Of a stretch of DNA of 64,000 nucleotides, positions 28,961-60,730 are shown in pieces; position 1 is the first letter of the stretch; every line of letters starts with the position of its first letter. The position numbers and the translations under genes are program-made. The stretch spans positions 176,936-240,935 of the forward strand of contig JBBHKE010001223.1 in NCBI GenBank assembly GCA_037447655.1. The letters run 5' to 3'. A model generated the notes under the pieces. That model was not told the DNA's origin. It did not search any database and saw only the letters and a program-made list of their open reading frames with translations. This stretch comes from Zygnema cylindricum. Lineage: Eukaryota; Streptophyta; Zygnematophyceae; Zygnematales; Zygnemataceae.

Positions 28961-29171
28961 ACAATGGAAGGGGAAGATGAGATTATTTACATTGCTATGT
29001 ATGTAGATGATTTGTTGCTACTGAGTAAGTCATTAAATGAGATTAATAAAATAAAGGCAACCTTGAATTCGAGATTTGAGATGAAAGATTTAGGGGAGGC
29101 AAAGTATATTATCGCGATTCATGTAGAAAGGGATAGAGATAAGAGAATAATCTATCTAACATATTGGGAAG
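28961..29171 (+). pseudogene. reverse transcriptase of copia A, middle piece with YVDD
   Basis: It encodes EGEDEIIYIAMYVDDLLLLS (YVDD at 29000-29011) and continues to KRIIYLT, where element G interrupts it. It joins on its left with the piece ending at 23328 and on its right with 46367 onward. Confidence 0.85.
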
Positions 29172-29400
29172 TGTCGAGCGTGCACGGTGAACGTGAGAAA
29201 AGGGCCTGCAGCTGGGAGTCGTTGGCATTGGAGTCCTGCAAATAGACCACGAATGCGAATGCTTCCCAAAATGATGATCATACCCACTTCTGCCCACATC
29301 GCTCCCATAGATAAACATGCACAATAGGAGAGAGGCATGAGCAAGGAATAAGGATGAGGGCAGAGGGAAGGCGAAAGTTATCCCCTCCTCGTTCCTCCCC
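29172..29400 (-). repeat. block outside the 3' LTR of G, duplicate of 29770-29995
   Basis: TGTCGAGCGTG and the following 220 bp recur in the same order at 29770-29995, immediately inside the LTR. The order is therefore block, LTR, block, internal region. The copies share GAATGCTTCCC and ACAATAGGAGAGAGGCATGA. Confidence 0.85.
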
Positions 29401-29404
29401 ACTT

Positions 29405-29767
29405 TGACCTAACGTAATTAATGGACAAAAAGTCAGCTGAGGCTGAACTAAATTGCTACTGACGGTTACTAGCATAATCTAAATGCAAATCCGGAAAGTT
29501 ACGTGGCAATCCACAATGTACCCCCCACGGGGGCTGGTGGCAAATGGTTCCCTATAACGGAATTGCAATCTTTGAGGCGGTAGAACTTTGTTGTCCGGCC
29601 TCCGTTTGGCGCCAAATAAAGTGCATTCCGCTCAGTTTAGGAAATACAAGGATATCATCCGGCTTGGTGCACTCACTCCTTCGTACTATTAAGACCGTAC
29701 AGAGTAAAAAGGGCCCGAAAATCCTTGGTGATGTAAAGGTATGCTTCAAAAGCACCTGAGCTTGACA
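29405..29767 (-). repeat. 3' LTR of gypsy G (363 bp)
   Basis: It runs from TGACCTAACG to GAGCTTGACA on the plus strand, so TG...CA on either strand, and is the same length as 46004-46366. Only scattered substitutions are visible. Confidence 0.9.
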
Positions 29768-29769
29768 GG

Positions 29770-30060
29770 TGTCGAGCGTGTCGGTGAACGTGAGAAAAGG
29801 GCTCGCAGCCCGCAGTCGTCGGCATTGGAGTCCTGCAAATAAACCCCAAATGCGAATGCTTCCCTAAATGATGATCACACCCAATGCTGCCCACATCCCT
29901 CCCATAGATATGCATGCACAATAGGAGAGAGGCATGAGCAGGGAATAGGGATGAGGGCAGAGGGAAGGCGAAAGTTATCCCATCCTTCTTCCTCCCCCCT
30001 TGGCCGAAGGAAGGGATTACGGTCTCGGTAATCAGGCTGATATCCCAATTTCCCCCCCTC
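29770..30060 (-). other. 3' end of the internal region of gypsy G, including the second block copy
   Basis: It holds the block copy 29770-29995, followed by a short C-rich stretch (TTTCCCCCCCTC at about 30050). No purine tract in minus orientation sits right next to the LTR, which is unusual. Confidence 0.6.
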
Positions 30061-30125
30061 TTAGTCAACCGTGACTAACATAAAAAAAAAATTACCCGCT
30101 CCATTCGCAGTTCCCACAGAACCAA

Positions 30126-30202
30126 ATGCTGGATGGTAAAGGGTGTGGCTCCCAAGAGGAGGGGAGATAGGCTGAATGCCAACACTGACCACACTGATTG
30201 CA
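30126..30202 (-). repeat. 77-bp duplication, copy 1 (copy 2 at 30334-30410)
   Basis: ATGCTGGATGGTAAAGGGTG to CACTGATTGCA is repeated almost exactly 208 bp further on. It lies at the C-terminal end of the integrase frame of G and shifts it. Confidence 0.9.
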
Positions 30203-31480
30203 GACCAATAGGTTGTGCAGCTGGGAGGACTAATTCCAAGCTGATGAACGAAGGGAGGATCGGCAAAGTAAGTTAAGTAGAAATTGGGTTCGTCTTCCAA
30301 TCCCTGAAGATGGCGGGGGGCCACATTGACCAGATGCTGGATGGTAAAGGGTGTGGCTCCCAAGAGGAGGGGAGATAGGCTGAATGCCAACACTGACCAC
30401 ACTGATTGCATCTGTTGCGTGTCTTTCTTCTGTTGCATCCGATATACAAAGTCCCCCGGCATAAATCGTCGCTGTCGAGGCACATTATTCCCGCTCCGGC
30501 GTTGACAATACCACAACTGATCTCGGTGTTGAGCCGCCTGCAAATTGCCCATGGCGAGAGGCATCTCTCGGTGGAATATCTTGGCCCTGTCTGCGATCAG
30601 TTTTTCGACTGTCCCTTCTCATCCATAATCGGTAGGACCACCGCTTGGGTCTATGCAGCTCCAAGCAAGATGGGATGCCGTCCAAATAGAATGAAATAAG
30701 GACTATAGGAATGGAGAGAAGCCTGCCTGCTAAATCTGTACAAATAGCAATCCAAGGCACTTTACTATCCCACTCCCCCAAATCTTCTTCCACGACATAT
30801 TTTCGTAGTGACCGCTTCACTGTCTGTACGCACATTTCGGCCAAACCGTCGGCTTGAGGGTGGTGATGGCTTGTCAACTGATGGTAGACCAAGAATTTTT
30901 CCAAGAGGTTGGAAAATTCTCCGGCGAATTCGGAGCCTTGGTCGGTCAAAACTTTCGCAGGCGCTCCGAAATGTGCCAAAACCCTTTGCAAAAAGGCATC
31001 TGCAATTGCCTTGGACTCCTTCTGGGGCAAAACCACCAACTCGATCCACTTGGAAAAATGTTCTATCATGACCAACACGAAGCGGTTCCAACGCCTGTTG
31101 ATCGGAAGAGGTCCCAAAAGATCCAACGACCACCGATAAAACATCCCTCGGATAGGAAGCGAATGAAGCTCAGTCTCGCCCTTCTTGTCAAAAGCTGCCT
31201 TAACTCGATCGCATGAGGAGCAAGTTTGCACAATTCGGTTGACTTGGGTCCGCAACCCATGCCACCAATAAGAGCCCGTAACCAAGGAAGGGGGCCGCTC
31301 TTGCATGAAGTGTCCACATTGCCGATGGAGATTGGAAATCAGAGTTTCTCGGTCAGAGGGGGGAGGAACCACTTTCCTCGTACCGTTTGACCATTTCCGA
31401 ATGAGAATGCCTCTGTCCCAATCATACGCAGCCATGCGGGTCTGTACCCGGGATAAAGGAACTCCAGTCAAGTGGGGAAG
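30180..31480 (-). pseudogene. integrase of gypsy G (broken)
   Basis: Reading down the minus strand: the zinc domain (HRQCGHFMQE and CSSC), then the DDE core (SLDLLGPLPINRRWN with the first D, VLTDQGSEFAGEF with the second D, QADGLAEMCVQT with the E), then WIAICTDLA. A frameshift at about 30720 separates the C-terminal part, which has a GPY/F-like segment (RQRRFMPGDFVYRMQQ) at about 30480-30420. The uninterrupted piece 31471-30720 keeps all three acidic residues. Confidence 0.85.
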
Positions 31481-31499
31481 AGGTGACCCCTGCTGGATA

Positions 31500-33170
31500 G
31501 ATTAGAGAGCATCGGGGTCGTTCCAGATGTCCTTCCGTCCGGCTTCTATGGGCGCCGGCCCCTCCATCGGCAAAGAAAGTTGACAGTTCCCCCCAAGATT
31601 GGGGAGGCTAGATGAAAACGGAGGATGCTCGAATGATTCCCAAGCTGATCTTAAGGTCCTCATCATGCCGAGCCCCGGTAGAATCCATGGTGGAGGGATC
31701 AGGATTCCGGCTAAGTCCGTCGGCATTCCCATGGATCTCTCCTGCCCTATGAAGAATGTCGAAATCAAGTTCCTGCATGACAAGAACCCATCTGGCGAGT
31801 TTGCTGGTCAACTTACTATTTTCTATGATCTATTTCAAGGGTTGGTGATCCGTAATCAATGTGAAATGGACTCCATACAAATAAGGCCGGAAATGCTGGA
31901 TGGCCGAAACCGCTGCGAATAACTCTCCGTGGTAACTGCTATAATTCCCCTCTGCCCTGTTGTTTCTCTGGCTGGCGTAAGCCACCACATATTCAGCTCC
32001 GGCATCATCGACTTGAGCCAGAACCGCTCCCAATCCAAACCTGCTCCAATCAGTATAAAGGTGGAAAGGTCCTTGGTGATCAGGCATCCGGAGCACGGGG
32101 TGCTGCTTCAAAGCATCTTTCAACAACTGGAAGGAGATCTCTTGTTTTTCGGCCCACTGCCACTCTTGGTCTTTACGCAATAGCTGGTTAAGGGGATGGG
32201 CGTGACTACTGAACTCTGGGATAAACCGCTGATAGTAATTGGCCAAACCCATAAAAGTGCGAAGGGTCGAGATGTCCTGTGGTGGGGGAAGAGCGTCAAG
32301 GGTTGCCACCTTGACCATGTGGGGACCCAAAGTCCTGGGAGTCACCTCATGTCTGAGGTAAATGATTTTCTGCACGCCAAAAATGCCTTTGCCAGGGTGA
32401 CATTTCAAGCCCGCTGCTTGGAGTGCCCGGAGAACGATCTGGATATGCTCCAGGTGTTCATCAAAAGTCCTTGAGAATATAATAACATCATCAATATAGC
32501 ACCGGGCACAATTGATTCCTCGGAGCATTTCGTCCATTGCCCGTTGGAATTTTGTTGGTGCATTCTTAAGCCTGAAAGGCATATAAATCCATTTATAAAG
32601 TATGGAACCTGCCCAAAATGCAGTTCTCTCCTGGTGTTTTGGTTCCATGGCAATCTGGTGGAAACCATTCTTCATGTCCAGAGTGGAATACATAGTGGCT
32701 CCAGCAAGAGAGTACAATATCTCTTCCGGAGTTGGCATCGGAAACCGGTCAAAGATGGTGGCCGTGTTCACCATGCGATAATCTCTACACATCCGCAAAT
32801 CTACAGTTTTCCGTGACGAGTCCTTTTTAGGAGGGAGGACTGTTGGGAAAGCGAACACATGAAGTCCGCTACTTTCCTGAACCAATCCGGCTTCCACCAA
32901 GGTCAGGACTTTAGCTGTGATGAATTCCTTTTCCTTCAAACTGATAGGATACTGCTTTTGCCAAACAGTAGCCGTCTCGTCGATCAAATCGATTCGGAAA
33001 GGTGTTCCATTGTAGATACCAACATTTGTTTTGACCATGAAAACACCTGTTTGTTTTCGGCAAACTGTTCCGAGAGTCGCGCCTTTTGTTGAGGGTCCAG
33101 CTGCTCCCCCAGGGTCCAATCCATTTTCCCCGGCTCAACGGCAGCCCTAGCTTCCGGCGGTCTACCCTAG
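31500..33170 (-). pseudogene. reverse transcriptase-RNase H of gypsy G
   Basis: A single open piece (33119-31830, 429 codons) covers most of the domain: AGLVQESSG, CRDYRMVNTATIFDRFPMP, YSTLDMKNGFHQIAM, then YIDD (32487-32498), LGLANYYQRFIPEF-type thumb and connection motifs, and RNase H with LYTDWSRFGLGAVLAQ, YHGELFAAVSAIQHF and LITDHQPLK. A stop follows; in the next frame the RNase H end reads ARWVLVMQELDFDIL and ends with NADGLSR. YIDD and the RNase H D, E, D residues are present. Confidence 0.9.
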
Positions 33171-33519
33171 AGGTTAATGTCGAATTCCAACCCTATTGGT
33201 GGATCTGCCCCTACCTCTCCGGCTAGGACACTGCTGCTGACAACTTTTGCTAAGCTGTCGCCATTTGAGCCGCCGCCCCCCCCCACTAGGAAAACTGCGG
33301 CGGTAAAATGTGAATTTATGTTTTTCTTCTCCTTTCTCTCCCCCCCTCAAGCTGCATAGTTGCCAGCTTCGCTAACAACTAAGGAGCTTGAAGGTAAATA
33401 GCCCGTGATTCCGGGGACTTGAGACTGGAAAAGGGGAGTGCATGCTTGAGTACCCATGTAACCGAATTCAAATCCATACTTTGCCCCATAAGGCTGCACC
33501 TCTTGGTGCTGCCGTTGTG

Positions 33520-34600
33520 CCTTTCTAAAATCCCATTGCCTCTTCGCGTTCAGCAATTGTCATTGTTGTCCAAAGTCCCGCTTTGTTGTCAAAAATCATC
33601 CCTGCCGCTCCTTTCTGATACGCGTCACTGTGAAGGAAAGAGACCAATGTTGGGAGGGCTTTCCTTGGGAATCCCGGTCTGTTGCATCGGAAAAAAGGGG
33701 GGCGATATGGTCGAGTCACATGGGTGGCTATTCTACCTTCCCCAAGCATTTGCTAAACTGAATTTTTCGAGTCGGGGATTTCCTTCTCCAAAAGTTGTCG
33801 GAGGACTAGAAGCGGGATCATATTGGTCCAATATGCCCTGACTCTGTGTGCCCGGGATCCCTTCTGTGCGGCGTCGAAAACTAAGGGAGCCCCTAAAATC
33901 CGGGTTACGTGATTTCAGCTGTCCGCAACCTGTTTTCGTTTATCATCTCCCGGGTGGACATTTTCCAAAACGTACCCTTTCGGCGTTTCCTGGAGCTGTT
34001 CAAGCCACGAGACTAATTTGATCAGCCGAAAAAAGGTTCCACTTCTGTGGTCTTGATGCCCTTTTCCTTGTCCTGCTAGGGAGTATCCCTGACAAGGCAA
34101 GCCCGCCAACACCAAATCCACTCTTCCCAAACTGGCCAGGTGGGTCGCCATGATGTTCTCTACATTATGGGGAAGACTACGGTGAGCTTTGGAGAAGGCG
34201 GATACTAGAAGCTGTTGAGGATATAGGTGATCAAGTTGGTGGAGGCGATGCTCGCTTACAGCCCGCGCCTCGGAGATATTTCCACGGCTGTGTATGACTC
34301 CACCAAATATCTTGTTTTTAAGACTGCTTCCAAATCAGAACTAAATCCTGAAAATAGAGATAAAATACGCAGTCCGGAATCGGGAACTGCCAATGACACC
34401 ACTTGTCGATTGAATTTTTTGTTACAACTCTTGGGGTTGGAAGCATTAGCATTTGGGGTAGGAACGTCTTCCTTCAATGTTAAGGCGGAAAATGCCTTAT
34501 CCACTCCCCGCCGGAGTTTTGCTACCTGTAATAAACTATTCTTATATTCCTCTTCCCACCGCTTGGAAATTGGGAATTGCTAGATTTCTTTGGCGATATC
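33520..34600 (-). pseudogene. C5-cytosine DNA methyltransferase domain inside gypsy G (broken)
   Basis: On the minus strand, in family order: motif I LRILSLFSGFSSDLEAVL (about 34379-34320), motif II YTAVEISP, then after one frameshift near 34260 motif III-IV VDLVLAGLPCQGYSLAG (catalytic Cys codon 34092-34094), motif VI GYVLENV (about 33957-33965), motif VIII GSRAHRVRAYWTN (about 33855-33815) and a motif IX-like stretch TLVSFLHSDAYQKG to EREEAMGF (about 33660-33530). Motif X was not found. The enzyme class methylates cytosine at C5 in DNA using AdoMet. AHRxRxYW and the small size, about 280 residues, resemble DNMT3-like enzymes more than DNMT1/CMT. Three later stops (after VADS, before QMLG, after AMGF) and the frameshift inactivate this copy. 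The frame upstream is continuous with the protease except for two in-frame stops, so the domain was part of the Pol polyprotein. Confidence 0.85.
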
Positions 34601-34789
34601 AGTGGAACTGCCAAACAGTTTTGTCGGAGATGGTGTTGTGTACACCGGGTACCATCCAGACACAGGGACATTTGTCTTTCCCCGGTTCCATAAATCCAGA
34701 GAAACCACCACTTTGGTTCTTTCCGAATTTTTGGGGTCCCGGAAGGTACATTGTTCCTTCCACAAGCTCAAACTCATATTGAACAGGGT

Positions 34790-35326
34790 CTAAGTGGCCA
34801 TTCCCAACAGAATTTCGAATTGAGTCCCTTCCACCACCAAGAAAGGGAGCTCAATTTTCACCCGTTGGCCTCCGTCATCCGAAAACTCGATATCCATGGC
34901 CTTGATTATTCCATGGACTGGTTGGCTGCTGTTGCTTACGGTGCTTAAGCAGATGTTGCTTGGGCAGATTTCGGGCCGGAGTTCCTCGGGCATCTTCTGC
35001 AAAGCCGAGGTGGTAATGAGGTTGGGGAGAGATCCGTTGTCGACCACAACGTCCTGGTATCCCCCGTATTTGTTGAGCTTGAAGTTCCCGGTTATGTTCA
35101 GTATGAGAGCCACTGATAAGGCTTTGTAGTCCCTATCCACTATAGGGGTTTTAGGATTGGTGGACAAAAAAAGTGCAGTTGGCGGAGTGGTCCTGTCTAC
35201 CCCCCCCTTTCCCGAGTGGATTTCCTCTCCCAATGCCTGAAAGAGGATTTCTTCGGGCAGGTTGTGGGACGATGCTAGAGTCTTCACGTGTGTGAGAGCA
35301 TAAGGCATGAGGTGCCGGACGAGCAT
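34790..35326 (-). pseudogene. protease region of gypsy G
   Basis: The 178-codon frame contains DVVVDNGSLPNLITTSAL, where the aspartic protease motif is normally DTG or DSG (here DNG), a central hydrophobic stretch, and FLVVEGTQFEILLGMA (the ILG motif). It is fused in frame, past a TAA, to a linker and the methyltransferase. Substitution in the active triplet may mark decay or an atypical protease. Confidence 0.75.
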
Positions 35327-36821
35327 GACAGCCGGCTTGGAGGAGGGAAGTGTTGCTTTCGGTGAAGAGGGAGATGAGTTTGGTTCCTGCAGATCCTGAT
35401 CTTGTACTTCTTGCTCACTCTCTGAGCAGGAATCTGAATAGGAGGTGTTTGGAGAGCATCATTCTAGTGACTCCTTCTCTCGCTGCTGTTTCTCGTTCTG
35501 GTAATTTTCGAAACCGGGAGGCAATTTAGGTTTGGGAGGATCAGATGGCTGGTGATTGGGCTTGATTCCTAAGCCGATGTCGTTGTTCAATATTACGGCT
35601 CGGGGAGTAAATACAAAAGCCCTGTAGATTTCCGGTTGTGATCCCTCTGACCCATTTTCTGCCGGTCCTGTCTTTGCATTAAGGTGGAGTTGCGGAGTTG
35701 GCGACGTTTGTCTCCTACCCCAACATTCCTAGCTCCGGACGGGAATCTTCGGGCATGGTGGGCATTTGGGGGTTCCAAATCCCAGCCGAATAAGTCGTCA
35801 TCGTTGGCACCCTCTGTGCTTTGAAGCTCAAGCTCCGCAAGCTTCTGTAGCAACTCCTGTCTTTGCCTTTAGAGTCGTTGGGCTGCTGTAAGAGGTGCAG
35901 GCCGAGAAGAAGATCCCAGGCGGAGGGCAACCAACTCTGCAGCCATCGCGGCCAACTGCTGACTTTGTTGCTGTATAATGATATCCGGCGTAAGCTTTGC
36001 CGGAGCAGCCGGAATTCGCTCAGGTCTCTCCGGTGTTGGCATAAGTTGGCGCCCCCACGGGTAAAAATGTTGGAGGGGTAGAGGGTTAATGGCGGTTTCT
36101 CCTTCTCCAGTAAACAAAACAAACTGCATCATCTACTTGGGTATTCTATATTTCCGGAAACATTGCCCTTCTTTGTGCCCCAGAAATCCACGTGCTTTGC
36201 ATTTGGCGCCCTCGGTAGTATATTTACTCCGGATTTCGTTGGAGATTTGGGCGTCATCAAACTTTGGAAGCTTGATTTGCCGCAACTAAGATTGGGACAT
36301 CTTCGAGGGTTCGCTCCGTGGAGTTAGACGGTAAGTTTCTTTGGATACCGGTGTCTTGTCCTCTCCCCTTCCTCCCTTGAGCCTTTCTTCCCGTTCAAGG
36401 TCCTTTCTGCCCGTTCTTTCTCCCATTCTTTAAGTTTCAAAGCCAGCTCCGGTTTAAGTTTTCTAGTGTAGTGCTTCCACCCATGACCCGGTTGTTGACA
36501 CTTCCTGCAATTATAGAGAAATACCCGCTCATCTGCTCCCATAGCTGGCTCTGACCCGCTGTCTGCCACTTGCTTCCCTTTAAGATTTCGAAAAACTTGA
36601 AGTTCAGCCTATTCCTCCTCATTCAGATTGGTTTCCCGGGTTAATCCTGCCAAATTTGCTCGGGCCTTGCCGGTCACAGCATTTTCCCTGACCTCACTGT
36701 GGACGAAGTGGTCATACAACTTCATGGCCACCAGAGAAATGTCCTTGGCTGAGGGATTACTGTCCTGAATTGCATGCCCGGCAATCCAATTGTCCAGTGC
36801 AGTCTGCCTTGTCGGCCCGAA
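35327..36821 (-). pseudogene. C-terminal Gag, zinc knuckle and linker of gypsy G
   Basis: Starting right after the solo LTR: the end of the Gag capsid (FGPTRQTALDNWIAGHAI, LVAMKLYDHFVHSEV), a zinc knuckle in which the last cysteine is replaced (CRKCQQPGHGWKHY, about 36510-36470), a charged K/E-rich stretch, then after frameshifts a Q/A-rich coiled-coil candidate (IIIQQQSQQLAAMAAELVAL) and an acidic linker (GANDDDLFGWDLEPP). Function beyond Gag packaging is not inferred. Confidence 0.7.
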
Positions 36822-36826
36822 GGAAT

Positions 36827-37883
36827 TGTAGAAATTAATGGTCCATTTTAAATATTTTCTAGGTCTAAATAGAAATATAGAAAGAAGCCGAGGCAGTCTA
36901 CCTCTAACTTCTCTCTCCAACTCTCAAACTTGTCGCAGTCACTGAGAAATTGGAGAGGGAGCTAGACCCATGGCTACCTAGGCTATTTGAGAGGTTTACG
37001 GGAAATATATATATTAGTTTGTGGTTTATTTACTAAAAGGTATATGCGGTCACAGGATTTGATCCTGGTACTTACGAGTCGACAGACAGCCGGTAGACGG
37101 TAGCCTTAGCCGTTAAGTCTGGAACTAGTGTTACGTAATAAATGGTTTGATAATTAATTAAACATTACCAAATAGAATAATTCATTTAACTATAACTGTT
37201 TACGAGATACATAGATCCGGTAATGTAAAAGTACGGATTACGGTACATATAAGAAACCAATACCGCGCATTTATTTTTTTAATGAAACCAATACCGCGCA
37301 TGTATTTACTACGGCTACGATTAAATGTGAATTTAATCGGACGGCCGAAATTAACGTCGAGATCGCGGAAGAGGATTTCGGCGGTTTGTGGTCATCGCCA
37401 CATCGAATGGCACGTGGCAGAATGACATTCGATCGCGGCATCTGTGAGGATTAAGGGAGCGAATCCGGACATACCACGTGTCGACATTTAGGCCATGTCC
37501 TACAGTGTTCGTACAGAAAGTACACCGACAGTTGTACTTTTGTGTACGGAACTATATTCTGATTGGCTCCGTACATCAGTAGATAGAGTTTGTGAGAGAG
37601 ATAGGACTTAGAAAAATTAGGAGATAGGACCCTCTCTCCCAGAGTGCTTCTATACAAAAGGTCAACTTTGACCCTCCATAACTTACTTCTCAGGGGAGCA
37701 AATTCAGAGATTCTTTTTGCTATCGACTCAGAGGAGACTTGCCTTTACAGGGGTGAAGTTGGTCAGAGTTATTGTGTGCTAGGGTGGCAGTTATTTTTGC
37801 TGAAACACAAAGGGGTCAGGGTTATCCTAGAGGCTTCTTGGAAGCTATCCACTCTGAGGACTTATGGAGGTCTCACAGTTTCA
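36827..37883 (+). repeat. solo LTR of family B inside gypsy G
   Basis: 1057 bp, TGTAGAAATTAATGG to ACAGTTTCA, matching 48496-49550. The exact 5-bp target duplication GGAAT lies at 36822-36826 and 37884-37888. Taking out the LTR and one GGAAT makes the G Gag frame continuous. It shows an intra-element LTR recombination after insertion and defines the LTR ends of family B. Confidence 0.95.
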
Positions 37884-37888
37884 GGAAT

Positions 37889-38731
37889 TACGGATGCCGA
37901 AGAAATATTTTGTGGCCATTGCCGAAAGATCAATCGTGGACAACTTTGTCTTTTGACATAGACTCGAGAGTCGGTTAAAAAGGGTCTGGGGAGTCTCGTT
38001 CTTCAAACATCGGAATTCCGTGAATTCCTTGATTGCGAACTCGTTCCTCCGTGTGTAGAGGAGTCTCTAGATATTCAGCAAGGTGGTACAAGGGTAGGGG
38101 TTAGCCACCATGCGTGTTGCTGCCTCGGCTTCATAGATCGCCTGCAGCTGGTTAACATAGGCACTTCCTTGAGCCTGTAGTTTCATGCCATGTGTGAAGG
38201 TAGCAGTCACAGGGGTCGCCGCAGCTGGTTAATATAGGCACTTCCTTGAGCCAGTAGTTTCATGCCCTGTGTGAAGGTAGTAGTTATAGGGGTCGTCGCA
38301 GCCGCGGCCAAGTCAGCCTCCGCTTGCAAAACAGTGGCATCAAGGGCTGGATCCGAGATTTTGATGCTAGAAGCCATCAAAAGAGGTTGACGCTCCTTGT
38401 AATCCGCCAACGCCCCTCCAGACAGGTAGTTGACCATCATGGGGAAGAGGGTGGTTTCAAAGTCATCCAGAATGCCCCCCCCCCGGTACTTGTTAATTTC
38501 AGATTGGGTGAAAGATTTCCACAACAACTCGAAATCTGAAAGTGCAATCCCCGAGCTATCTCTGGTAAAGATCCGGATATCCCACATCTCTTTTTATTCC
38601 TCTGCAGAGTTGGTGAAATGGGAAGAGGAATGCCCGGTGGGGCTTACAAACTGAGCTGGTGAGATGACTCTAGTATCTTCTTCCTCGGGACGCGAACCGG
38701 GTCCTTCTGTGCTAGAAGGTGCGGCCCCCTG
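37889..38731 (-). pseudogene. Gag capsid of gypsy G, middle piece
   Basis: Between the solo LTR and element D the minus strand encodes an acidic segment (RPEEEDTRVISPAQF), a stop, then the capsid (DFELLWKSFTQSEINKYRGG, FPMMVNYLSGGALADYKE). A 77-bp tandem duplication at 38144-38297 shifts the frame near its end. It continues into DLSAMATKYFFGIRNS next to the solo LTR. Confidence 0.75.
38144..38297 (-). repeat. 77-bp tandem duplication in G Gag
   Basis: The unit starting GCAGCTGGTTAA is present twice in direct contact (38144-38220 and 38221-38297). Since 77 is not a multiple of three, it breaks the reading frame. Confidence 0.9.
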
Positions 38732-38736
38732 TGGTG

Positions 38737-39912
38737 TGTTGATATTTGGGTATTTTCTAGGTCTGTATAAAGGATAGAAAAAGAGCTGAGGCGGTCTGCC
38801 TCTAACTCCCCTATCCAAGCCCCCACACTTGTTGTAGTCACTGAAGGCTGGATAGGGAGCTAGAGCCATGGCTGCCTAGGCTCTCTAGAGAAGACAGGGG
38901 GAGAATTAGACTTACCAAAAGTAGGCTGCCGGACGCAGGAATTGATCCTGGTACCTGCCGTCCGTCAATCGGCATTAGCCGTTAGCTCTAGCCGTTAAGT
39001 CTAAAAATGATATTACGATATATATGGTTTGATAAATATATAAATCTTTGTATGTAGATAAATCCGTTTAACGGCTTATAGATACTTTGTACATAGATAC
39101 AGTTTGATTTAGTACGAAGTACGGTATGGGGACAGAACGGATACCGCGCATTTGTTTCGATAGCGAAACGAATACCGCGCGTCGAATTTCAGCGGTTAGG
39201 ATTATAGCCGGTTTTGATCGGACGGCCGCGATAGGCGCCGCGATCACGGAAATGTATTTTTGGCGTTTTACGGTCTTTGCCACGTCAGATAACACGTGGC
39301 GTAATAACATTGGATTACGGGAATTCCGGAGATTACAGGAACTAATCCTGATTTGACACGTGTCGACATTTTGGCCATGTCGTACAATGGCCGTACAGAA
39401 AGTACACCGGCACCTGTACTTTTCTGTACGATACAGTAATTTGATTGGTGCCGTAATTTAGTAGATAGAGTTTTAGAGAGGGAATAGGACTTAGAAAATT
39501 TTGGGTAGGCAGCTGCCTCTCCCAGAGAGCACTCTGTATAAATGGCAAACTTTGGCCAGCCATATCTATCAATTTACTTGACCATTTTCAGTGATTATTT
39601 TTGCTGCGGACTCAGGGGAGTCTAGGCTACACAGGGGTGTAGTCGGTCAGAGTTTTTGTCTGCCAGGGTGGCTGTATTTCTAAGGGAAAGTCAAAGTGGG
39701 TGAATGTGTCCAAATCTCATATTCTAACTTTGCATTCTGTGGTGGAACTGAGCACACAGAAAGTGTTATTTCACAGGGGTGAATCTATATTGGGGTTCTG
39801 ACTGTCAAGGGGTCAGTCACTTGGGTTTATATTAACTTGGAGTCGGCACTATCTAGATTAGCTTCTTTTGGATCTGCATACTCTGAGGGCCAATGGAGGT
39901 CTCAGAGTTTCA
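38737..39912 (+). repeat. 5' LTR of D
   Basis: TGTTGATATTTGG to AGAGTTTCA. It contains an imperfect palindrome TTTGTTTCGATAGCGAAAC (about 39150-39170), a TATAAAT-like box (39537-39542) and the upstream Gag ATG (39893). Small frames on both strands recur in every D LTR only because the LTRs are copies. Confidence 0.95.
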
Positions 39913-39927
39913 GGTTATGGGCCCACC
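39913..39927 (+). other. primer-binding site of D, half-tRNA type
   Basis: GGTTATGGGCCCACC follows the LTR end without a gap. It is complementary to the anticodon arm (GGTGGGCCCATAACC) of plant initiator tRNA-Met as I recall it. Drosophila copia and yeast Ty5 prime from such an internal tRNA site. Variants: GGTTATAGGCCCACC in B (49551) and GGTTATGGGCCTGTG in E (24165). Confidence 0.8.
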
Positions 39928-41944
39928 ATCTAGGGTGCCTATGTTTGATGGAACAGGCTTCACGTATTGGGCGTTTACAATGGAGGGATTGCTTTTCGAG
40001 AAGCACTTATGGGGAATTGTTGCGGGACAAGTGAGATGTCCGCCACCTGGCTTTGGAGGAGCTTACTACGGAGAATCATCTGAGACTGCCCAGAATATCA
40101 TCCGGAGTTCAGATGTAACGGAAGGTGAAGGGAAAAACCTTTCCGTGGATGGGGAAATAGGGGAGAAGGAAAAAGGGACACCTATGGTGAGGGGAGCTAG
40201 GCTCTCAGCTATGGTACCACATGTAGGGACTAAAACTGAAGAAAATGACACAAAAATATGGGAATACAAAAACACTATAGCAAAACATCTCATACTTAGA
40301 TATGTGTCTAAGTCGATAGCTATCACTCTTTTAAGTCTAACCAAGTCTTCAGAGATATGGGAAGCACTAACTCAGATTTATAAGAGTGAGACTATTCAGA
40401 GGCAGCAATTAGTAAAACATGAAATAGATGCCTACGTTTATAAAGGCGGTAGCATGATAGAGTTTTGCAATGATATTGCTGCGTTATATGTTGAGCTTAC
40501 TAGTGCGGGATATGTAGAATCTGAGGAGAGTAAGATTAATACACTGATTATGAAACTCCCAGATGAGTACGAAAACATAATTTGTCGTATGCAGGCAATG
40601 GATGGCTCCTCATGGACTTGGAGCTTTACCATGGGGATAATTCTTGTGAAGGAAAGCACTTTGGAGCTTCGTAGGGGAAAGGACAGGGTCAATGCATTTT
40701 CAGCTGGTGGTGATTGGCGGAAGCGTGATGAGAGGAACGGCGGTGACGAGCGGAATCGTGATGAGAGGAACGGTGGTGACGAGCGGAAGCGTGATGAGAG
40801 AAAGAAAGAAAAAGGTAAACCTTATCGGAACTTTGGTGGAAAGAGAGGGAGAGGAAAAGAATGGGGAGCTTTAAAAAAGGGGGCTTGCTTCTTTTGTAGG
40901 GAACCGGGTCATTATATGGAGGAATGCCCTTCTTTGGAAAAACTTAGAAGTTGGAATGTGGATGAGGAGGAAAAAGGGGAAGAGGAGAAAAAGGATGAAG
41001 ATATTTTAGAGCTTCTCCGGATTAGTAGTATGGGGAAGAAAGAAAAGCACACAGTAATTGCACGAAGGCAACAGTGTGCTTTTGGAGGTATAAGGGAAGT
41101 AAAGAGAGAGGAGGTACTTGAGGATGTTGAGGAGTGTAGAGTGTATGACTTAGAAATGAGAAAGTCAGTTCTAGGATCCATAAGTGAAAACGGGAAAGAT
41201 AAAATTAATAAGGATAATTTTATAGATAATAGGGAACCAGAAAACTGGTCAGAAAGGGAGACTTCAACGGATTCCGAGGAAAGGGGAGAAGTGAAACTCG
41301 AAGAGGTTTCAAAGGATAGGGGAGAAGATAAATATTTGATTAAAGGTTTAGGGGAGAAGAAATATTTATTGGGAATTAAATTAGAAAGTAATAGTGGAAA
41401 GAATTCCATGGGAGAGAGTGAGGGAGGTTCAGAAAATGGGGTAATTATCATGGATAAAAATATGAGTACGAAAGATGTAGATCTTATGAGGAACTTAGTG
41501 GGGACTAGTGTTTTTTGGGAATATTTGGGGGTGGATGGATTTGACATCACTACTTGGTGTGACGTCACTTGTGAAGATGTGCCTGTAAAAGGGTTAGCAT
41601 CTGGGTGTATGTTGCAGATTGAAAATGGGGCTGGCTGTTTGGATCGCAAGAGGGAAATCGGTTTGTGTGTGGATGAAAGAGTGATGAAGTGGATAAAATC
41701 TTTGCTCGGATTTATGGAAAAAGGGATGTTAAATAAAATGTGTGATGCAATTATCATTTCAGTTCATTTAATGCACTGTGTTAAATACTTAAGTTTTATG
41801 AAAGGAAAAGAAAAAAGGAAAAAGAAAAGGAAAAAAAAAAGGAGGGGGTGTTTGTTTACTTGTTTGTGGAAGTTGAAAGAAAATAGACTAGAAAATAAGG
41901 GGAGTGTTGATATTTGGGTATTTTCTAGGTCTGTATTAGGATAG
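39917..41944 (+). CDS. Gag fused to a diverged RNase H-like C-terminus (element D)
   Basis: One open frame of 683 codons if counted from ATG 39893 in the LTR, or 675 from ATG 39917 in the primer site; the second fits the conserved MGPPSRVP start. Residue numbers here count from 39893. The Gag core includes FTYWAFTMEGLLFEKHLWG and the UBN2-like part IWEALTQIYKSE to MKLPDEYENII (up to about 240). A run of RDERNGGDER repeats follows, then a zinc knuckle CFFCREPGHYMEEC (332-345) and a charged E/K-rich stretch. At about 530-640, LVGTSVFWEYLG, FDITTWCDVTCED and WIKSLLGF align with RNase H of B (LIGTRDLWLHLG, SDASYGD, WVKSLLGE). The STMEAEY region is missing, so activity is unlikely. A lysine/arginine tail follows, and the frame ends 40 nt inside the 3' LTR. 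Role inferred: particle protein of a parasite using B enzymes. Confidence 0.85.
   Translation: MGPPSRVPMFDGTGFTYWAFTMEGLLFEKHLWGIVAGQVRCPPPGFGGAYYGESSETAQNIIRSSDVTEGEGKNLSVDGEIGEKEKGTPMVRGARLSAMVPHVGTKTEENDTKIWEYKNTIAKHLILRYVSKSIAITLLSLTKSSEIWEALTQIYKSETIQRQQLVKHEIDAYVYKGGSMIEFCNDIAALYVELTSAGYVESEESKINTLIMKLPDEYENIICRMQAMDGSSWTWSFTMGIILVKESTLELRRGKDRVNAFSAGGDWRKRDERNGGDERNRDERNGGDERKRDERKKEKGKPYRNFGGKRGRGKEWGALKKGACFFCREPGHYMEECPSLEKLRSWNVDEEEKGEEEKKDEDILELLRISSMGKKEKHTVIARRQQCAFGGIREVKREEVLEDVEECRVYDLEMRKSVLGSISENGKDKINKDNFIDNREPENWSERETSTDSEERGEVKLEEVSKDRGEDKYLIKGLGEKKYLLGIKLESNSGKNSMGESEGGSENGVIIMDKNMSTKDVDLMRNLVGTSVFWEYLGVDGFDITTWCDVTCEDVPVKGLASGCMLQIENGAGCLDRKREIGLCVDERVMKWIKSLLGFMEKGMLNKMCDAIIISVHLMHCVKYLSFMKGKEKRKKKRKKKRRGCLFTCLWKLKENRLENKGSVDIWVFSRSVLG
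41894..41904 (+). other. polypurine tract of D
   Basis: AATAAGGGGAG directly precedes the 3' LTR and is nearly the same in A, B and E. It is also translated as part of the D frame. Confidence 0.85.
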
Positions 41945-43079
41945 AAAAAGAGCTGAGGCGGTCTGCCTCTAACTCCCCTATCCAAGCCCCCACACTTGTT
42001 GTAGTCACTGAAGGCTGGATAGGGAGCTAGAGCCATGGCTGCCTAGGCTCTCTAGAGAAGACAGGGGGAGAATTAGACTTACCAAAAGTAGGCTGCCGGA
42101 CGCAGGAATTGATCCTGGTACCTGCCGTCCGTCAATCGGCATTAGCCGTTAGCTCTAGCCGTTAAGTCTAAAAATGATATTACGATATATATGGTTTGAT
42201 AAATATATAAATCTTTGTATGTAGATAAATCCGTTTAACGGCTTATAGATACTTTGTACATAGATACAGTTTGATTTAGTACGAAGTACGGTATGGGGAC
42301 AGAACGGATACCGCGCATTTGTTTCGATAGCGAAACGAATACCGCGCGTCGAATTTCAGCGGCTAGGATTATAGCCGGTTTTGATCGGACGACCGCGATA
42401 GGCGCCGCGATCACGGAAATGTACTTTTGGCGTTTTACGGTCTTTGCCACGTCAGATAACACGTGGCGTAATAACATTGGATTACGGGAATTCCGGAGAT
42501 TACAGGAACTAATCCTGATTTGACACGTGTCGACATTTTGGCCATGTCGTACAATGGCCGTACAGAAAGTACACCGGCACCTGTACTTTTCTGTACGATA
42601 CAGTAATTTGATTGGTGCCGTACTTCAGTAGATAGAGTTTTAGAGAGGGAATAGGACTTAGAAAATTTTGGGTAGGCAGCTGCCTCTCCCAGAGAGCACT
42701 CTGTATAAATGGCAAACTTTGGCCAGCCATATCTATCAATTTACTTGACCATTTTCAGTGATTCTTTTTGCTGCGGACTCAGGGGAGTCTAGGCTACACA
42801 GGGGTGTAGTCGGTCAGAGTTTTTGTTTGCCAGGGTGGCTGTATTTCTAAGGGAAAGTCAAAGTGGGTGAATGTGTCCAAATCTCATATTCTAACTTTGC
42901 ATTCTGTGGTGGAACTGAGCACACAGAAAGTGTTATTTCACAGGGGTGAATCTATATTGGGGTTCTGACTGTCAAGGGGTCAGTCACTTGGGTTTATATT
43001 AACTTGGAGTCGGCACTATCTAGATTAGCTTCTTTTGGATCTGCATACTCTGAGGGCCAATGGAGGTCTCAGAGTTTCA
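41905..43079 (+). repeat. 3' LTR of D
   Basis: Copy of 38737-39912 with about ten substitutions. It ends AGAGTTTCA and is followed by TGGTG, the target duplication. Confidence 0.95.
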
Positions 43080-43084
43080 TGGTG

Positions 43085-45066
43085 TGGATCCCCCTCCCAC
43101 TGAGGAAGTACCAGCGCCTGAAAAGATGGTTGGAGGTAGGATGTCCCCCACTACTCTTCTATGTCCAGCAGAATATGGTGGATCTCGAAGAACGGTTGCC
43201 ACCGATGGGATGTGGTGACAAGACTTGTTCACACGCCTTTGGGGAATTCCTGGTGGCGAAGACGGAGAAGGGGATGGAGACGGAGACAGCGGAGCCCTTG
43301 CGGGGAAAGGTGTCTTTCTCCCGGTTCGCCTCCTAGAGGTCTCAAGAGGGGAAATTCTAGAGCTAGAGGAAGGGGAGCGTCGGTGAGGCGGGGAATAGGC
43401 GGGTACGTCGTATTTGTAGGGTAACACCGGCGGACCAAGCGACCCACAAAAACTGCAGCAAGAGAAACGGATGGCGAAGGAGAGGAATCTCGACAGTCTC
43501 GGGGTTCTGTGGTGGGTTTTGGGGAGTGAGAGGAATAAAGTGGAGGAGCAGAAGATGGGAGCTCCAGGGATTTTCTAGGAGAAGTGAGAGGAGGTGCCGG
43601 GGCCCTCAAGGGGATGTGAATCCTTTGTCAGGTCGTAACTCCACTAAAGCCTCCACAGCAGTAGACACCTCCGCCGAGACAAAGGTAGTCTCTCTTCGAA
43701 GAGCTGAAACGTTTCCAAAAGGTAGATTTGCACCCAAACCCTCCACATTAGGTCATGTGTTTTCCTCCCCTTTGCGCTGAAAGAGAGCTTCGAAGAAGGC
43801 ATTTCAGGCAGAGTACTGGCGAGAGGAGAAGTCCCTGATGCAGGGGCTCCTGAATGCGGCACTATCTTTGGTGTAGGAGGAATCTTCCCGCTAAGAAATC
43901 CCACTTGTCCTACGCCGAGCTTCTCTATTGAGCGTCAATTCTTGTTCCCATGCCTTTCGCCTCTCTTCCTCTAAGGCCTCCCAATCTACCGTGACGGGTC
44001 GGGCCCCCGCCGTAGCCTGTCCTTGGGATTTTAGAACCTCCACTAGTTCCTTGGCTTTTTCCACTACTTTGGTAAGATCCGCTATCTCTATCCTCGGAAT
44101 TTCAGGATCATTATGTATGGTCCGCCACCATCCTTCGGACAAATCTTCTGGTCTCGTACCCGAAACCTCGAGATCAGTAGGTTTAGATCTCCGAAGCCTT
44201 TCGGTAGGGCGGACACGAATGGTGGTGGGAGCAGGTCTCTCGGTGGAGGGTGGAATAGGAGTCGGGGACGTCTCCTCCTTGGGGAAATGTGCGAATCTCC
44301 CTTTGCTATCACGGTGGTCAAACCTCTTTCCCCTCACTGAATGTCGTGTGTCCCTCTCGATACCCCCTTCTCCTCTACGAGGCAGAGAACATGTACCATC
44401 CCAGGTGGGTCGGCTGGCTGCGGTGTCTTGAAAGAAAGATGGGGGAGGGCGAGAATAGGGAGCTCTTTGGGACCGGTCCAGCATCGACTGGGAAGAGCTG
44501 CTCTCCGATGAACTACTCAAAATATCCACCACCCCCCCTACGGGTCTAACCACTCTGACTCGATCGGTCCGAGCCACTCTTTGTACCAACTCCTTCTTCA
44601 CCTTCAGCTCATGACGGTCGTGAAGAGCCAGGAGTTCCTTACGACATGGTCGGCGTGGGTCCCTCAAAACAGCGAGGTCAATCTGGATCTCGGCCCGCGG
44701 AATCTTGGATCGGGTATGAAGCCCGACCTCGGGAAGAGGACCCACATGGGACTCCCTCTGCGCGTGCCTCTTTAGCTAGGCCCTGGGAAACACTCTGTTC
44801 CTTCCCTGGGCCTGGGCCCGAGCTTCCCTCCTTTCCTCAGCATGGGCCCTGGCGGCCTCTCCCAAAGAAGGGTAATGTTCGGGAGTCAAACTTGGAGGCG
44901 GAGGAGGAGGAGAACAAGCACCAGCTGGTTACTTGGCTCGAGATTCAAAATCAGTCTCCATGGGCTCTGACTCATCGGACCTCAGAGGTTTCCCTCCCAG
45001 CATGGGCCTCTCTGGTCGACCTAGCTCTCCGGATCCGTTATCCGGAGTCTCTCCTCCCCCCATGAT
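43085..45066 (-). pseudogene. N-terminal Gag of gypsy G
   Basis: Minus-strand coding remains begin near 45066 (GGGETPDNGSGEL) and contain an A/E/R-rich helical piece (AHAEERREARAQAQ), a 284-codon open piece at 44745-43891 with serine runs (SSSSESSSSQS) and a predicted helix (EIADLTKVVEKAKELVEVL), then P/S/R-rich stretches. Two stops and a few frameshifts interrupt it. The final part joins the piece at 38731 once element D is removed. No domain is recognised beyond general Gag character. Confidence 0.6.
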
Positions 45067-46003
45067 GAAAGAGGAATCGTGGGAAAAAATGGTGATTAAA
45101 ACTAAAGCTCACTTCCAAAAAGAGGGCTTCCAAAGTGAAAGCTCTTATCCCCTCTAATCCGAGAAGAAAGGTTGATTTTCAGTACAGTGCGTTGTCTACG
45201 GGAAGTCTATCACACTTGTTCTCTCAAAACCCACTGTCCTGATCCAGGGGGTTTGAGTTTACTCCGGAACCGTAACTCTAAAGCAAAGAACTCCAGATGA
45301 AGACACAAATGCACTATCACGTAGATATATATATAAATAAAAAGGATTGGCTTTCCAAATTTAACAATATCACCTTGCCCCAGAAAAGAGTATAAAGGAT
45401 AGAAAAAGTGAAATATAGCGAAGCAAGCTTAACATACCCCAACAATCAACGATGACAATTAGAGAAAGGAGAACCCTCTCCCGAGAGTATCGTCAAAAGG
45501 TATGGTGCTCTTGCAACCTTCAGTGTCCGCAGCTCGGAACCGAGAAGACTCTTCCCGGTTCCAAACAACAAAAAGTTCAAAATCACCCAAAAAGGAAGAT
45601 AGTGCCAACTACCCGCCCGGACTGTGATTTCCACACAAGACAGATCCCAAAACCAAGATGGCTATGGAGTCGAAAACAACACAAATATTCTCCAAAAGAA
45701 GGTTTGTTGGAATTTTTGAGGGTTTTCGCAGGATACAGTACTAAATAGCAACCTGTCTCCTCGACCCCAAAAATGCCTTATACATCAAAGTTTGTCAAAT
45801 TGCAAGTCCAAAAGTCAAAGCTACGCTATTAACCAATGAGCGGCTAGCAAGTGTAATTGAACTGACACAAGACAAATTAATCCGTACTACACTTGGGGCA
45901 AAAAGTTCTTCTCCAAACTGCTGCTAGATCCGCGGCCGGAAGTAATTATTCGGTCCACAATTATAAGACAAAATCTTGAAAATGACACTACCTTGCCAGA
46001 CTT
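45067..46003 (-). other. 5' leader of gypsy G
   Basis: No coding signal. A candidate primer site TGGCAAGGTAGTG lies five bases after the LTR end (minus strand, about 45998-45986). A short (TA)n run is at about 45325. Confidence 0.55.
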
Positions 46004-46366
46004 TGACCTAACGTAATTAATGGACAAAAAGTCAGCTTAGGCTGAACTAAATTGCTACTGATGGCTACTAACATAATCTAAATGCAAATCCGGAAAGTTA
46101 CGTGGCAATCCACAATGTACCCCCCGCGGGGGCTGGTGGCAAATGGTTCCCTATAACGGAATAGCAATCTTTGAGGCGGTAGAACTTTGTCGTCCGACCT
46201 CCGTTTGGCGCCAAATAAAGTGCGTTCCGCTCAGTTTTGGAAATACAAGGGTCTCGTCCGGCTTGGTGCACTCACTCCTCCGTACTCTTAAGACCGTTAA
46301 GACTAAAAAGGGCCCGGAAATCCTTGGTGATATAAAGGTATGCCTGAAAAACACCTGAGCTTGACA
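46004..46366 (-). repeat. 5' LTR of gypsy G (363 bp)
   Basis: Same length and ends as 29405-29767. Its outer end (GCTTGACA) directly abuts the resumed reverse transcriptase of A. Confidence 0.9.
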
Positions 46367-48029: not shown

Positions 48030-48495
48030 AGCTTTAGGATTAGCGGAGCGGCTACGAGCTCGAGGATCGGCGCCAATCTAGAGGATAGGCAGCGCAGCGA
48101 CGAGCTAAAGGATCGGCGGCGTTGCGACAAGTTTGACTATGACGCGGCCGCAAGCTTGAGTATGGCGCAGCGGCAAGCTCGAGGATTGGCGGTGCGGCTG
48201 CGAGCTCAAGGATCGGCGGCGAGCTCGAGGATTGGCGCCGATCTCGAAAATAGGCGGCGCGGCGGCAAGCTCAAGGATCGGTTGCACGACGACGAGTTGA
48301 AAGATCGGCGCCGCGACGACGAGTTCGAATATAGCCCGGCGGCGAACTCGAGTGTGGCGCGGCAACAAGCTAGAGGATCAGCGGCGCGACAACGAGCTCA
48401 AGGATCGGCAGCTCGGCGACGAGCTCGAGGATCAACGACGCGGCGGCGAGCTCGAGGATCGGCGGCGAGGCGACGAGTTTCAGTATAGAGCGGCG
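48030..48495 (+). repeat. GC-rich 27-bp minisatellite, right part
   Basis: The array resumes after the LTR of A (GAGCTCGAGGATCGGCG units) and ends where the LTR of B begins, so a second element also entered this array. Confidence 0.85.
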
Positions 48496-49550
48496 TGTAG
48501 AAATTAATGGTCTTTTAAAGTACTTTCTAGGTTTGAATAGAAATAAGAAAGAAGCCGAGGCAGTCTACCTCTAACTTCTCTCTCCAACTCTCAAACTTGT
48601 CGCAGTCACTGAGAAATTGGAGAGGGAGCTAGAGCCATGGCTACCTAGGCTATCCAGAGGTTTACGGGAAAATATATTTTAGTTAGGGGTTTAATTTACT
48701 AGAAGATATGTGTCGGCCACAGGATTTGATCCTGGTACCTACCGGCCGGCAGACAGCCGGTAGCCGATACCCTTAGCCGTTAAGTCTAGAAGTAGTGTTA
48801 CGTATTGTAGGGTTTGATAATTATTTAAACATTTATACGTAGAAAAGTTCATTTAACTATAACTGATTACGGGAGACATATATCCTGTAAATGAAAAAGT
48901 ACGGATTCCGGTACGGATAAGAAACCAATACCGCGCATTTATTTCTTTAGTGAAACGAATACCGCTCATGTATTTATTACGGCTACGATTAAATGTGAAT
49001 TTAATCGGACGGCCGGAATTAACGCCAAGATCGCGGAAGAGGATTTCGGCGGTTTGTGGTCATCGCCACATCGGATGACACGTGGCGGAATGACATTGGA
49101 TCGCGGCATCTCCGAGGATTAAGAGAGTGAATCCGGACATACCACGTGTCAACATTTAGGCCATGTCGTCCAATGGCCGTACATAAAGTACACCGACAGC
49201 TGTACTTTTGTGTACGAAATTGAAATCTGATTGGCTCCGTACATCAAAATATAGGGTATGTGAGAGAGATAGGACTTGGAAAAATTAGAAGATAGGACCC
49301 TCTCTCCCAGAGAGCTTCTGTACAAAAGGTCAACTTTGACCCTCCATAACTTACTGCTCAGGGGAGCAAATTCAGAGATTCTTTTTGCTATCGACTCAGG
49401 GGAGTCTTGTCTTCACATGGGTAAAGTTGGTGAGAGTTTTTGTCTGCTAGGGTGGCAGTTATTTTTGCTGAAACACAAAGGGGTCAGGGTTATCCTAGAG
49501 GCTTCTTGGAAGCTGTCCACTCTGTGGACTTATGGAGGTTTAGAGTTTCA
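48496..49550 (+). repeat. 5' LTR of B
   Basis: 1055 bp, TGTAGAAATT to AGAGTTTCA. Ends are confirmed by the solo LTR at 36827-37883. Gene-like elements: ATAAAA-type box region and CACGTGTC words shared with D LTRs. Confidence 0.95.
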
Positions 49551-50480
49551 GGTTATAGGCCCACCCTCTAGGGTACCAATCTTTAATGGAACTGGCTTCA
49601 TTTACTATGAAAGTATGATGATAGGAGCTCTATGCGAAAAAAGGTTTTGGGGGATGGTGAGTGGACGGCTGGGGCGTCCATCAAGTCTTGGAATTCCTCC
49701 AGGGTTTAGAGGAAGCAGATTCACCAGAAAAGAGGATCCACCTTCAACGGAGGAAACAAAAGAAGGAGAGGTGGTGGACAAAAGAAAGGAGAAGGAGGCG
49801 ACCACACGTATAACAACTGGTTCGGCATTCATGTCACCTATTCCGAGGAACGACTAGAATGATACTGAAACCTGAGACTTCAACAATATAGCGGCAAAGC
49901 ACTTCATCCTAGGCCATCTCACTCAAGGACTTGCATCTCCTCATTTGCAGGTAGAAAGGGCATTCGATCTTTGGATGGCTCTCATAGAGATGTACCGAAG
50001 TGGTACGATTCAACAACAACAGTTGGCAGATCAGAAAGTTAAGGAGTATGTATAGAAAGGGGGGAAGATGTTGGATTTTTGCAATGAGCTTGCTACACTC
50101 TTCATGGAGCTAGAGAGTGCGGGAAAAGATTTTAGTGAAAAAGAAAAGGTTAACTGTTTACTGATGAAGTTACCCGATGAGTTCGCGAACATAGTCAACC
50201 GTGTGCAGGACTTGCCGGACTCAAGGTGGATATGGAACTCAGTGGTAGGGATGATTCTTGTTCGGCAGAATACGATAAAGATCCGAAGGGGAGGAAAGAG
50301 TGGCCAAGCCTTGGCAACTGCGACCGATTGGAGGAACAAGGATTCCCGGAAACCGGTTGGAAACTATAGGGGGGGGGGAGCAGAAAAATCAGACCAAAGA
50401 GTTCGGAACAAAGGCTCCCAAAGGTTTATGTCATTTTTGTAAGAAACCTGGGCACTATATGGTAGAGTGCACTAAGCTAA
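49551..50480 (+). pseudogene. Gag of B (broken)
   Basis: GPPSRVPIFNGTGFIYYESM, then KRFWGMVSG, a stop at 49857, QRAFDLWMALIEMYRSGTIQ-type core, MLDFCNELATLFMELESAG, MKLPDEFANIVNRVQ and the zinc knuckle CHFCKKPGHYMVEC (about 50430-50472). The start region has lost one base relative to D, which puts TAG after the LTR-encoded ATGGAGGTT. A G8 run at 50371 adds a frameshift. Confidence 0.8.
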
Positions 50481-51860
50481 CCGAGCTTCGATTAAAGGAG
50501 GGGCAGACCGGTGGTATCCCGAGAGGAAAGAAAAAGGCCCTTGTGACACAGGTACATGAGACGGAATCCGAGGACGAGGACGATGAGCTCCTTTTGGATG
50601 AGGAGTTGGAGACGAAAAACGAGGTCGAAATACCACGAAGGCGAAAATGTGCTTACGGTGGATTGAAAGGTGAAGCAGGCTGGATTGTAGATTCATGTGC
50701 CTCCATGCACATGTGTAAGGATAGGCACCTGTTCCCTAAGATAAGATATATTCCCACCGTAAAGATAGAGTACGGGGATGGGAGGATAGTCACCACTACT
50801 TTTGTAGGATCGTTAGATTTGAAAGTGTTAGTAGAAGGAAAGACATCTATAGTAACATTCTCCGATGTATTGTTTATCCCGGAGCTAAACAAAAACCTCA
50901 TCTCTACATCAGTATTAGATGATAAGGGTTTTTTTACCAGCACTAGGGAAGGAGTCATTACTGCTAGTTTTGAGGAGGATGTCTATTTCATTGCTGAGAA
51001 AGGTAGCCATGGGATATTTAGGCTGGTTTTAAGTAATGAAAAGAAGAAACTTTATTATGCTGGTGTTCATGATATTATGATGTGGCATAAGAGGCTTGGG
51101 CATGTGAATCTAGACAAGTTAAGAGAGATGAAAAATATGGGAGTGGTGGAAGGGATTAAGTTTAGTGAGAATGATAATATAAGTGATTGTAGTGGATGTG
51201 CTCAAGGTAAAGCACACATATTACCCTTTCCTAAAACAACCACCTATAAGGGGGAAAAAGTTATAGATCTAGTACACACAGATATTTGGGGACCAGCTAA
51301 AGTGCCCTCACCGGGGGAAGAGATTTATGATGACTATCACTGATGATTGGTCTCGGTATTCCCGAGTGTTTTTTTTTGAAAAACAAGTCCGAAGCTCAGG
51401 ATTGTTTTAGACAATATAAAGCATGGAGCGAAAAACTCCATGAAACTCCAATCAAGAGAGTAAGTAGTGACAATGGTGGAGAGTATACTTCTAACCAGTT
51501 TGAGGATTTTGTGAGGGGAAGATGGGGTCCAACACCAAAAGACAGTTCCAGAAAACCCGGAACAGAATGGGGTAGCGAAAAGGTTAAATAGAACACTAAG
51601 TGATAGTGCTAGAAGTATGTTGTCAGATAAGAAGATAGGAAAAAGGTTTTGGGCAGAAGCAATGAACTGTGCTAATTACCTCAAAAATAGAGTTCTTACT
51701 TTAGCTATAAAAGATCAAACACCTTATGAGAGATTGACAGGCCGGAAACCAGACTTATCTCACTTAAAGGTTTTCGGCAGTCAAGTATTTAGTCTAGATA
51801 CAGATCGGTCTAATTGGAAGCTAGATCCTAAAGAAAAACCGGGATACTTATTAGGATAGG
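50481..51860 (+). pseudogene. protease and integrase of B (broken)
   Basis: The 347-codon piece 50300-51343 ends the knuckle and holds the protease motif DSCAS (WIVDSCASMHMC; DSGAS is usual) and the integrase zinc domain (MWHKRLGHVNLDKL, CSGCAQGKAH). DDE core: HTDIWGPAKVPS, then frameshifts at about 51340 and 51520, SSDNGGEYTSNQFEDF and NGV..RLNRT, followed by FWAEAMNCANYLKNR and PDLSHLKVFG. Confidence 0.85.
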
Positions 51861-53889: not shown

Positions 53890-53901
53890 AAATAAGGGGA
53901 G

Positions 53902-60501: not shown

Positions 60502-60730
60502 GGAGCTGGGGGGGGGAATAAATGGATCTCTCTCTCGGCTTCCCACTCACCTTTCACCTTTTATCCTTTCCACTTGTTATCTCATTTTTACATTGTCATA
60601 TTCATTTTAGCTTTGTATTATAATTATTTTTGCTTCGGGATGTGCTTTGCTGTTGTCTATTCCACGTTTTCTATTAGCCAGCTGGTTGGGTTGCATGATT
60701 TTTGGTTCGATTGGACACATGCACGACAGC
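60502..60730 (+). other. 3' untranslated part of C
   Basis: A purine tract GGAGCTGGGGGGGGGAATAA (60502-60522) follows the stop codon; usually it would touch the LTR, but 210 bp separate them. Nothing else is seen. Confidence 0.6.

Follow-up and report, generated by a model that had tools for sequence, protein, structure and literature searches.

Ty3/gypsy retrotransposons that carry a DNA methyltransferase have been known since 2018, when KnitGypsy-Dnmt3 of Klebsormidium nitens was described as combining gypsy domains with a DIRS repeat structure (de Mendoza et al. 2018, PMC5890265). In the same report, SymbioDIRS-Dnmt3 enzymes methylate CG in yeast, and the question of what a retrotransposon gains from carrying its hosts' silencing enzyme was left open (PMC5890265). 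According to a 2019 review, land plants such as tracheophytes lack transposons that bear a methylase (PMC6338049). Here we describe element G, a minus-strand Ty3/gypsy relic in a 64,000-nucleotide stretch of Zygnema cylindricum DNA (contig JBBHKE010001223.1, positions 176,936 to 240,935; hereafter the window), in which a C5-cytosine methyltransferase (MTase) sits between the protease and the reverse transcriptase (RT). G belongs to a numerous gypsy family whose Pol consists of protease, DNMT3-type MTase, RT, RNase H, DDE integrase and PHD finger, and we consider it probable that the MTase methylates the element's own cDNA.

A preliminary description of the window had placed an ordered series of MTase motifs, with the catalytic Cys codon at 34092-34094, between the protease and RT of G, and both the motifs and the domain order were found where it had put them; its mention of methyltransferase retrotransposons from charophytes and dinoflagellates agrees with the 2018 report (PMC5890265). 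Pfam DNA_methylase, the profile it had proposed as a check, matches the minus-strand open reading frame (ORF) 33915-34334 well above the cut-off (9.2e-11, 42.2 bits, cut-off 22), and the catalytic Cys is residue 81 in the frame of this ORF. A hidden Markov model (HMM) of the MTase family, built without the window and the proteins P0002, P0050, P0055 and P0056, scored 286.7 bits (9.8e-88) at 33492-34292, and its single match elsewhere in the window was noise (58591-58833, E 0.6). A chance match was rejected on the basis of this score and of 151 matches in the genome.

The proposed fusion of the MTase frame to the protease, save for two stops, holds for motifs I and II, from which the protease is separated by exactly two in-frame stops (34790-34792 and 34580-34582); motifs III-IX lie in the RT frame. 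A single frameshift between motifs II and III divides the two parts, and more stops occur in the RT-frame part, consistent with the disruption by frameshift and stops noted beforehand. Since the protease shares its frame with motifs I-II, and motifs III-IX share theirs with RT, Pol once read protease-MTase-RT before it broke. The window copy is decayed and unable to perform the proposed role now. The features of G are as follows.

29171..46366, minus strand: whole element G including two later insertions, delimited by copia coding borders and end repeats
45187..46366, minus strand: 5' (left) terminal repeat A1, 1180 bp (76% full-length match to the A repeat of copy L040; 93.7% over 367 bp to A2)
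36324..36923, minus strand: two ORFs left of gag, of which one matches zf-CCHC weakly (E 0.078, below cut-off)
34790..35458, minus strand: aspartic protease ORF, frame shared with MTase motifs I-II (weak: Pfam E 0.15, family HMM 12.8 bits)
34256..34579, minus strand: MTase part a, motifs I and II (family HMM 19.7 bits at 34226-34438)
33492..34334, minus strand: MTase part b, motifs III-IX with the catalytic Cys codon and internal stops (Pfam and family HMM)
31830..33134, minus strand: RT and RNase H (Pfam 2.7e-22 and 8.8e-32)
30485..31501, minus strand: DDE integrase with H2C2 zinc finger (Pfam rve 1.4e-12, Integrase_H2C2 1.1e-11)
30104..30241, minus strand: PHD finger remnant (family HMM 14.0 bits, E 2e-4), aligning with the PHD fingers of other copies
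29769..30001, minus strand: inner repeat B1 (89.7% to B2)
29401..29767, minus strand: right A repeat A2, 367 of ~1180 bp remaining (window self-comparison)
29171..29404, minus strand: outer-end repeat B2 (89.7% to B1), adjoining copia sequence

In the genome assembly (352.8 Mb, 2689 contigs), the MTase query gave at least 151 matches at E<=1e-3, with 150 of 1134 candidates scored. Among 30 loci cut out around such matches, the window being one of them, the MTase is immediately followed by RT in 25 and preceded by a detectable protease in 18. The MTase precedes RT in all ten larger copies, which were picked for long open frames, and a PHD finger follows the integrase in seven of these. The other copies thus carry the domain in the same place, and the open sister copies whose existence had been suggested are present: in the copy at C1374:26333-31366, protease, MTase, RT, RNase H, integrase and PHD finger are all in one frame, within an open frame of 1520 amino acids. 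An RT query, for which 97 of 4271 candidates were scored, showed a listed MTase upstream of RT at 39 of the 97 loci (median distance 853 nt); eight of the remaining 58 loci were retrieved, and all eight contain a whole or partial MTase. One further copy, G000:C961:71362-72606, has its RT in an open frame given as 5743 amino acids, far beyond any Pol found here.

Among open copies, dN/dS is 0.147 for the MTase and 0.115 for RT, values drawn from open copies of sufficient length alone, which favours intact ones, and from non-independent pairs. Together, dN/dS and the catalytic residues show that the MTase is maintained by selection in transposing copies. Base composition, with mild CpG depletion, decides nothing.

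Three protein searches, the second and third of which scored only about 8000 candidates each, yielded 68 distinct public relatives (P0003-P0070), and a retroelement domain is on the same protein as the MTase in 62 of them. These relatives show two sister Pol layouts, protease-MTase-RT and RNase H-MTase-integrase. In P0003-P0055 (n = 53), the MTase is RT-proximal to the protease in 20 proteins (11 with RT behind it, nine with only the protease seen ahead) and on the integrase side in 33. The two layouts are separated by one branch in the MTase tree (100/100; 54 rows, P0056 left out) and likewise in the RT tree (90/84; 39 rows), the pattern to be expected of an MTase that remained in its element and changed place once. 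The window family clusters with P0003, P0007 and P0004 (98/98), and a liverwort clade comprises Marchantia polymorpha (P0015, P0019) and Calypogeia fissa (P0057) (100/100), in a tree that omits P0001, P0056, P0069 and P0070. With the fragment P0067, of unknown layout, set to layout A by default in this tree, layout B needed two changes, and the branch enclosing P0067 has 98/99. The liverwort proteins are encoded on contigs of 0.17, 1.9 and 8.8 Mb, so contamination is unlikely, and they speak against a wider reading of the review's statement on land plants (PMC6338049). Between P0003 and P0007, RT is 92% and the MTase 74% identical; that is, the MTase changes faster than RT.

A PHD match lies behind the integrase in 32 of 37 integrase-bearing proteins, some of the matches being cut or weak, and it exceeds the Pfam cut-off in all three copies tested from the host genome. 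In the window, an 82-bp piece of G's PHD region is doubled with 99% identity (30121-30202 and 30329-30410, 208 bp apart). P0006 shows a weak PTM_DIR17_Tudor match behind its PHD finger (residues 923-962, E 0.009, below cut-off).

The MTase is assigned to DNMT3: by family profile and by predicted fold, its best match is DNMT3A/B, at 22-27% identity. This assignment derives from the family profile and the model of a relative; the window fragment alone matches HhaI best, with DNMT1 at E 0.76. DNMT2 matches the family profile weakly (1e-6). Two of the searches behind the assignment listed neither DNMT1 nor CMT chains at E<=1, an absence from the list rather than proof. DRM, bacterial and phage affinities were rejected, every match being weaker than DNMT3. 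Motif I precedes IV, VI, VIII and IX in the window and in the aligned relatives, and this unrearranged order differs from that of DRM enzymes, in which VI-X come before I-V. Motif IV of the DNMT3 family is PCN, as the alignment with DNMT3A also shows. The genome contig collection gave no relative (23 stretches fitted a pattern, none confirmed), and viral contigs contain three loci with weakly similar MTases.

The analysis also revealed, beyond the preliminary description, the element ends, split repeats, a PHD finger and nested insertions. Copia coding sequence on the plus strand reads to ~29161 and picks up again at 46367, indicating that G inserted into a copia element. The repeat order A1-coding-B1-A2-B2 was found in all three two-ended copies (L034/35, L040/41 and L042/43), none of which has a B next to A1, and the split-repeat order also holds at the right end of L046 and, with A2 shortened, in the window. 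L034/35 has a third copy of B and another 3.7 kb of different sequence ahead of B1. A1 and A2 are 97.8, 97.8 and 91.8% identical in the three copies and 93.7% in the window. Ordinary long terminal repeats (LTRs) are therefore ruled out for this family, whose ends are split direct repeats. DIRS/PAT elements carry a tyrosine recombinase; scans of ten window ORFs and of relatives found none, and the G family, which shares the split direct repeats with DIRS/PAT, has a DDE integrase instead. The family thus combines DIRS-like split repeats with a DDE-type integrase.

Two insertions interrupt G: a solo LTR (36827-37883) of the copia family at 48489-54909, and an element at 38733-43087 with 98.9% identical ends by window self-comparison. 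The latter is an LTR element whose ~1.19-kb ends flank a single plus-strand ORF of 685 amino acids (39887-41944), in which a CCHC-like motif was spotted by eye, and ends related to its own also occur at 61291-62545. A separate element at 54910-61301 has 571-bp end repeats (97.4% identical) and one ORF of 923 amino acids (57730-60501), the protease of which matches the gypsy protease profile (88 bits); within the window, no RT was found for this element.

How the MTase might serve the element can be considered from these sequences. We infer that it travels with the reverse transcriptase in Pol and would methylate the element's freshly made cDNA at CG sites; each new copy would then enter the genome already carrying the host's mark. 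The cDNA would thereby be disguised or protected, or the new copies would be kept quiet, sparing the host. The PHD finger that follows the integrase would recognise histone H3 and direct where the element inserts. Several points weigh against this reading. RT and MTase are in different frames in five of the ten larger copies, so many copies are decayed, and the dN/dS sample is biased as described above. Motif IV is PCQ in the window and has Q in 57 of 63 public domains, against PCN in DNMT3A. Gypsy elements without an MTase thrive elsewhere, so it is not obvious what an element gains from having one. In yeast, the KnitGypsy-Dnmt3 enzyme produced no methylation, a result that its authors call inconclusive (PMC5890265).

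It is unlikely that the MTase acts in trans on host chromatin, at host loci or rival elements, instead of on its own cDNA. The high copy number and the PHD finger in the same Pol would suit such a role, and the 2018 report considers how element DNMTs affect the methylome of Symbiodinium (PMC5890265), but the location of the MTase within Pol, between protease and RT, suggests action with reverse transcription. We give little credence to a non-DNA role, either modification of RNA (the transcript or a primer tRNA) or a structural part in the particle. The weak profile match of the tRNA methylase DNMT2, which belongs to the same superfamily, could point that way, as could two items of the 2018 report: the RNA methylation that it raises for LINE-type elements and the inactivity of the K. 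nitens gypsy enzyme on yeast DNA (PMC5890265). A meaningless chance insertion of a host gene fragment in this one copy, which the broken window copy taken alone would permit, is practically refuted by the same placement in 25 of 30 loci and ten of ten larger copies, the 151 genome matches, the retroelement domains in 62 of 68 public relatives and purifying selection.

Self-methylation thus being our preferred reading, we tentatively raise a wider history, as a possibility rather than an expectation. An old gypsy clade of green plants, liverworts included, may carry a selected pair of DNMT3-type writer and PHD reader, the reader next to the integrase and the writer having moved once in Pol. Self-marking would be a stable strategy, and through their number the elements may shape the methylome of the host; a history in which capture was confined to the K. 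nitens lineage would in that case be mistaken. If so, these elements would place on their own DNA the mark that the host uses for silencing. The family is large, its end repeats are almost identical in some copies (97.8%), and it offers many open MTase sequences; the PHD finger as a second domain points to chromatin targeting. With liverwort relatives, the question of what the MTase brings becomes testable in algae and Marchantia. In a limited literature search, we found no description of the PHD finger, of a writer and reader within one Pol, of retroelement domains on most of the public relatives, of liverwort members, of sister clades with different Pol layouts or of a gypsy family this large, and no title or abstract in it concerned a liverwort or zygnematophyte methyltransferase gypsy.

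The host appears to be an alga closely related to land plants. In the degenerate ribosomal DNA (rDNA) copy L063, AACAAGGTTT near the 3' end of the small-subunit (SSU) sequence is immediately followed by a match to a group I intron, which at 35 bits (E 1.6e-6) stays under the Rfam cut-off of 50; by manual count the position is S1506. Introns at S1506 are characteristic of conjugating green algae (Zygnematophyceae) without being exclusive to them, and the one here makes a member of this group the likely host. A second rDNA copy, the truncated and degenerate L054, ends in the same intron start, and L063 has retroelement-like sequence in place of the 5' part of the SSU.

Among known systems, animal DNMT3A/3B share the unrearranged motif order with the MTase and are its best profile and fold match; they differ in having PCN where PCQ is found here, and the MTase here lies within a retroelement polyprotein. 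Chromodomain gypsy elements (chromoviruses) carry a histone-reading module behind the integrase. The G family also has a module of histone-reading type in this position, a PHD finger instead, and no chromodomain was found in the five relatives scanned with Pfam. SymbioDIRS-Dnmt3 of Symbiodinium likewise has a Dnmt3-type MTase in Pol and A-coding-B-A-B repeats, and its two families differ in Pol domain order, like the two layouts here; those are DIRS elements with a tyrosine recombinase, whereas the integrase here is of the DDE type (PMC5890265). KnitGypsy-Dnmt3 is compared by its described architecture, no K. nitens sequence being among the named protein matches. It differs in its host, in copy number (at least 151 matches here, K. 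nitens copies being fewer than those of Symbiodinium) and in the PHD finger, a word that does not occur in the main text of the report (PMC5890265). Both elements have gypsy RT, RNase H and DDE integrase with an unrearranged Dnmt3-type MTase within the Pol ORF, both show a DIRS-type repeat arrangement (here A-coding-B-A-B), and in both several copies are under purifying selection (Ka/Ks <0.2 there, ~0.15 here) (PMC5890265).
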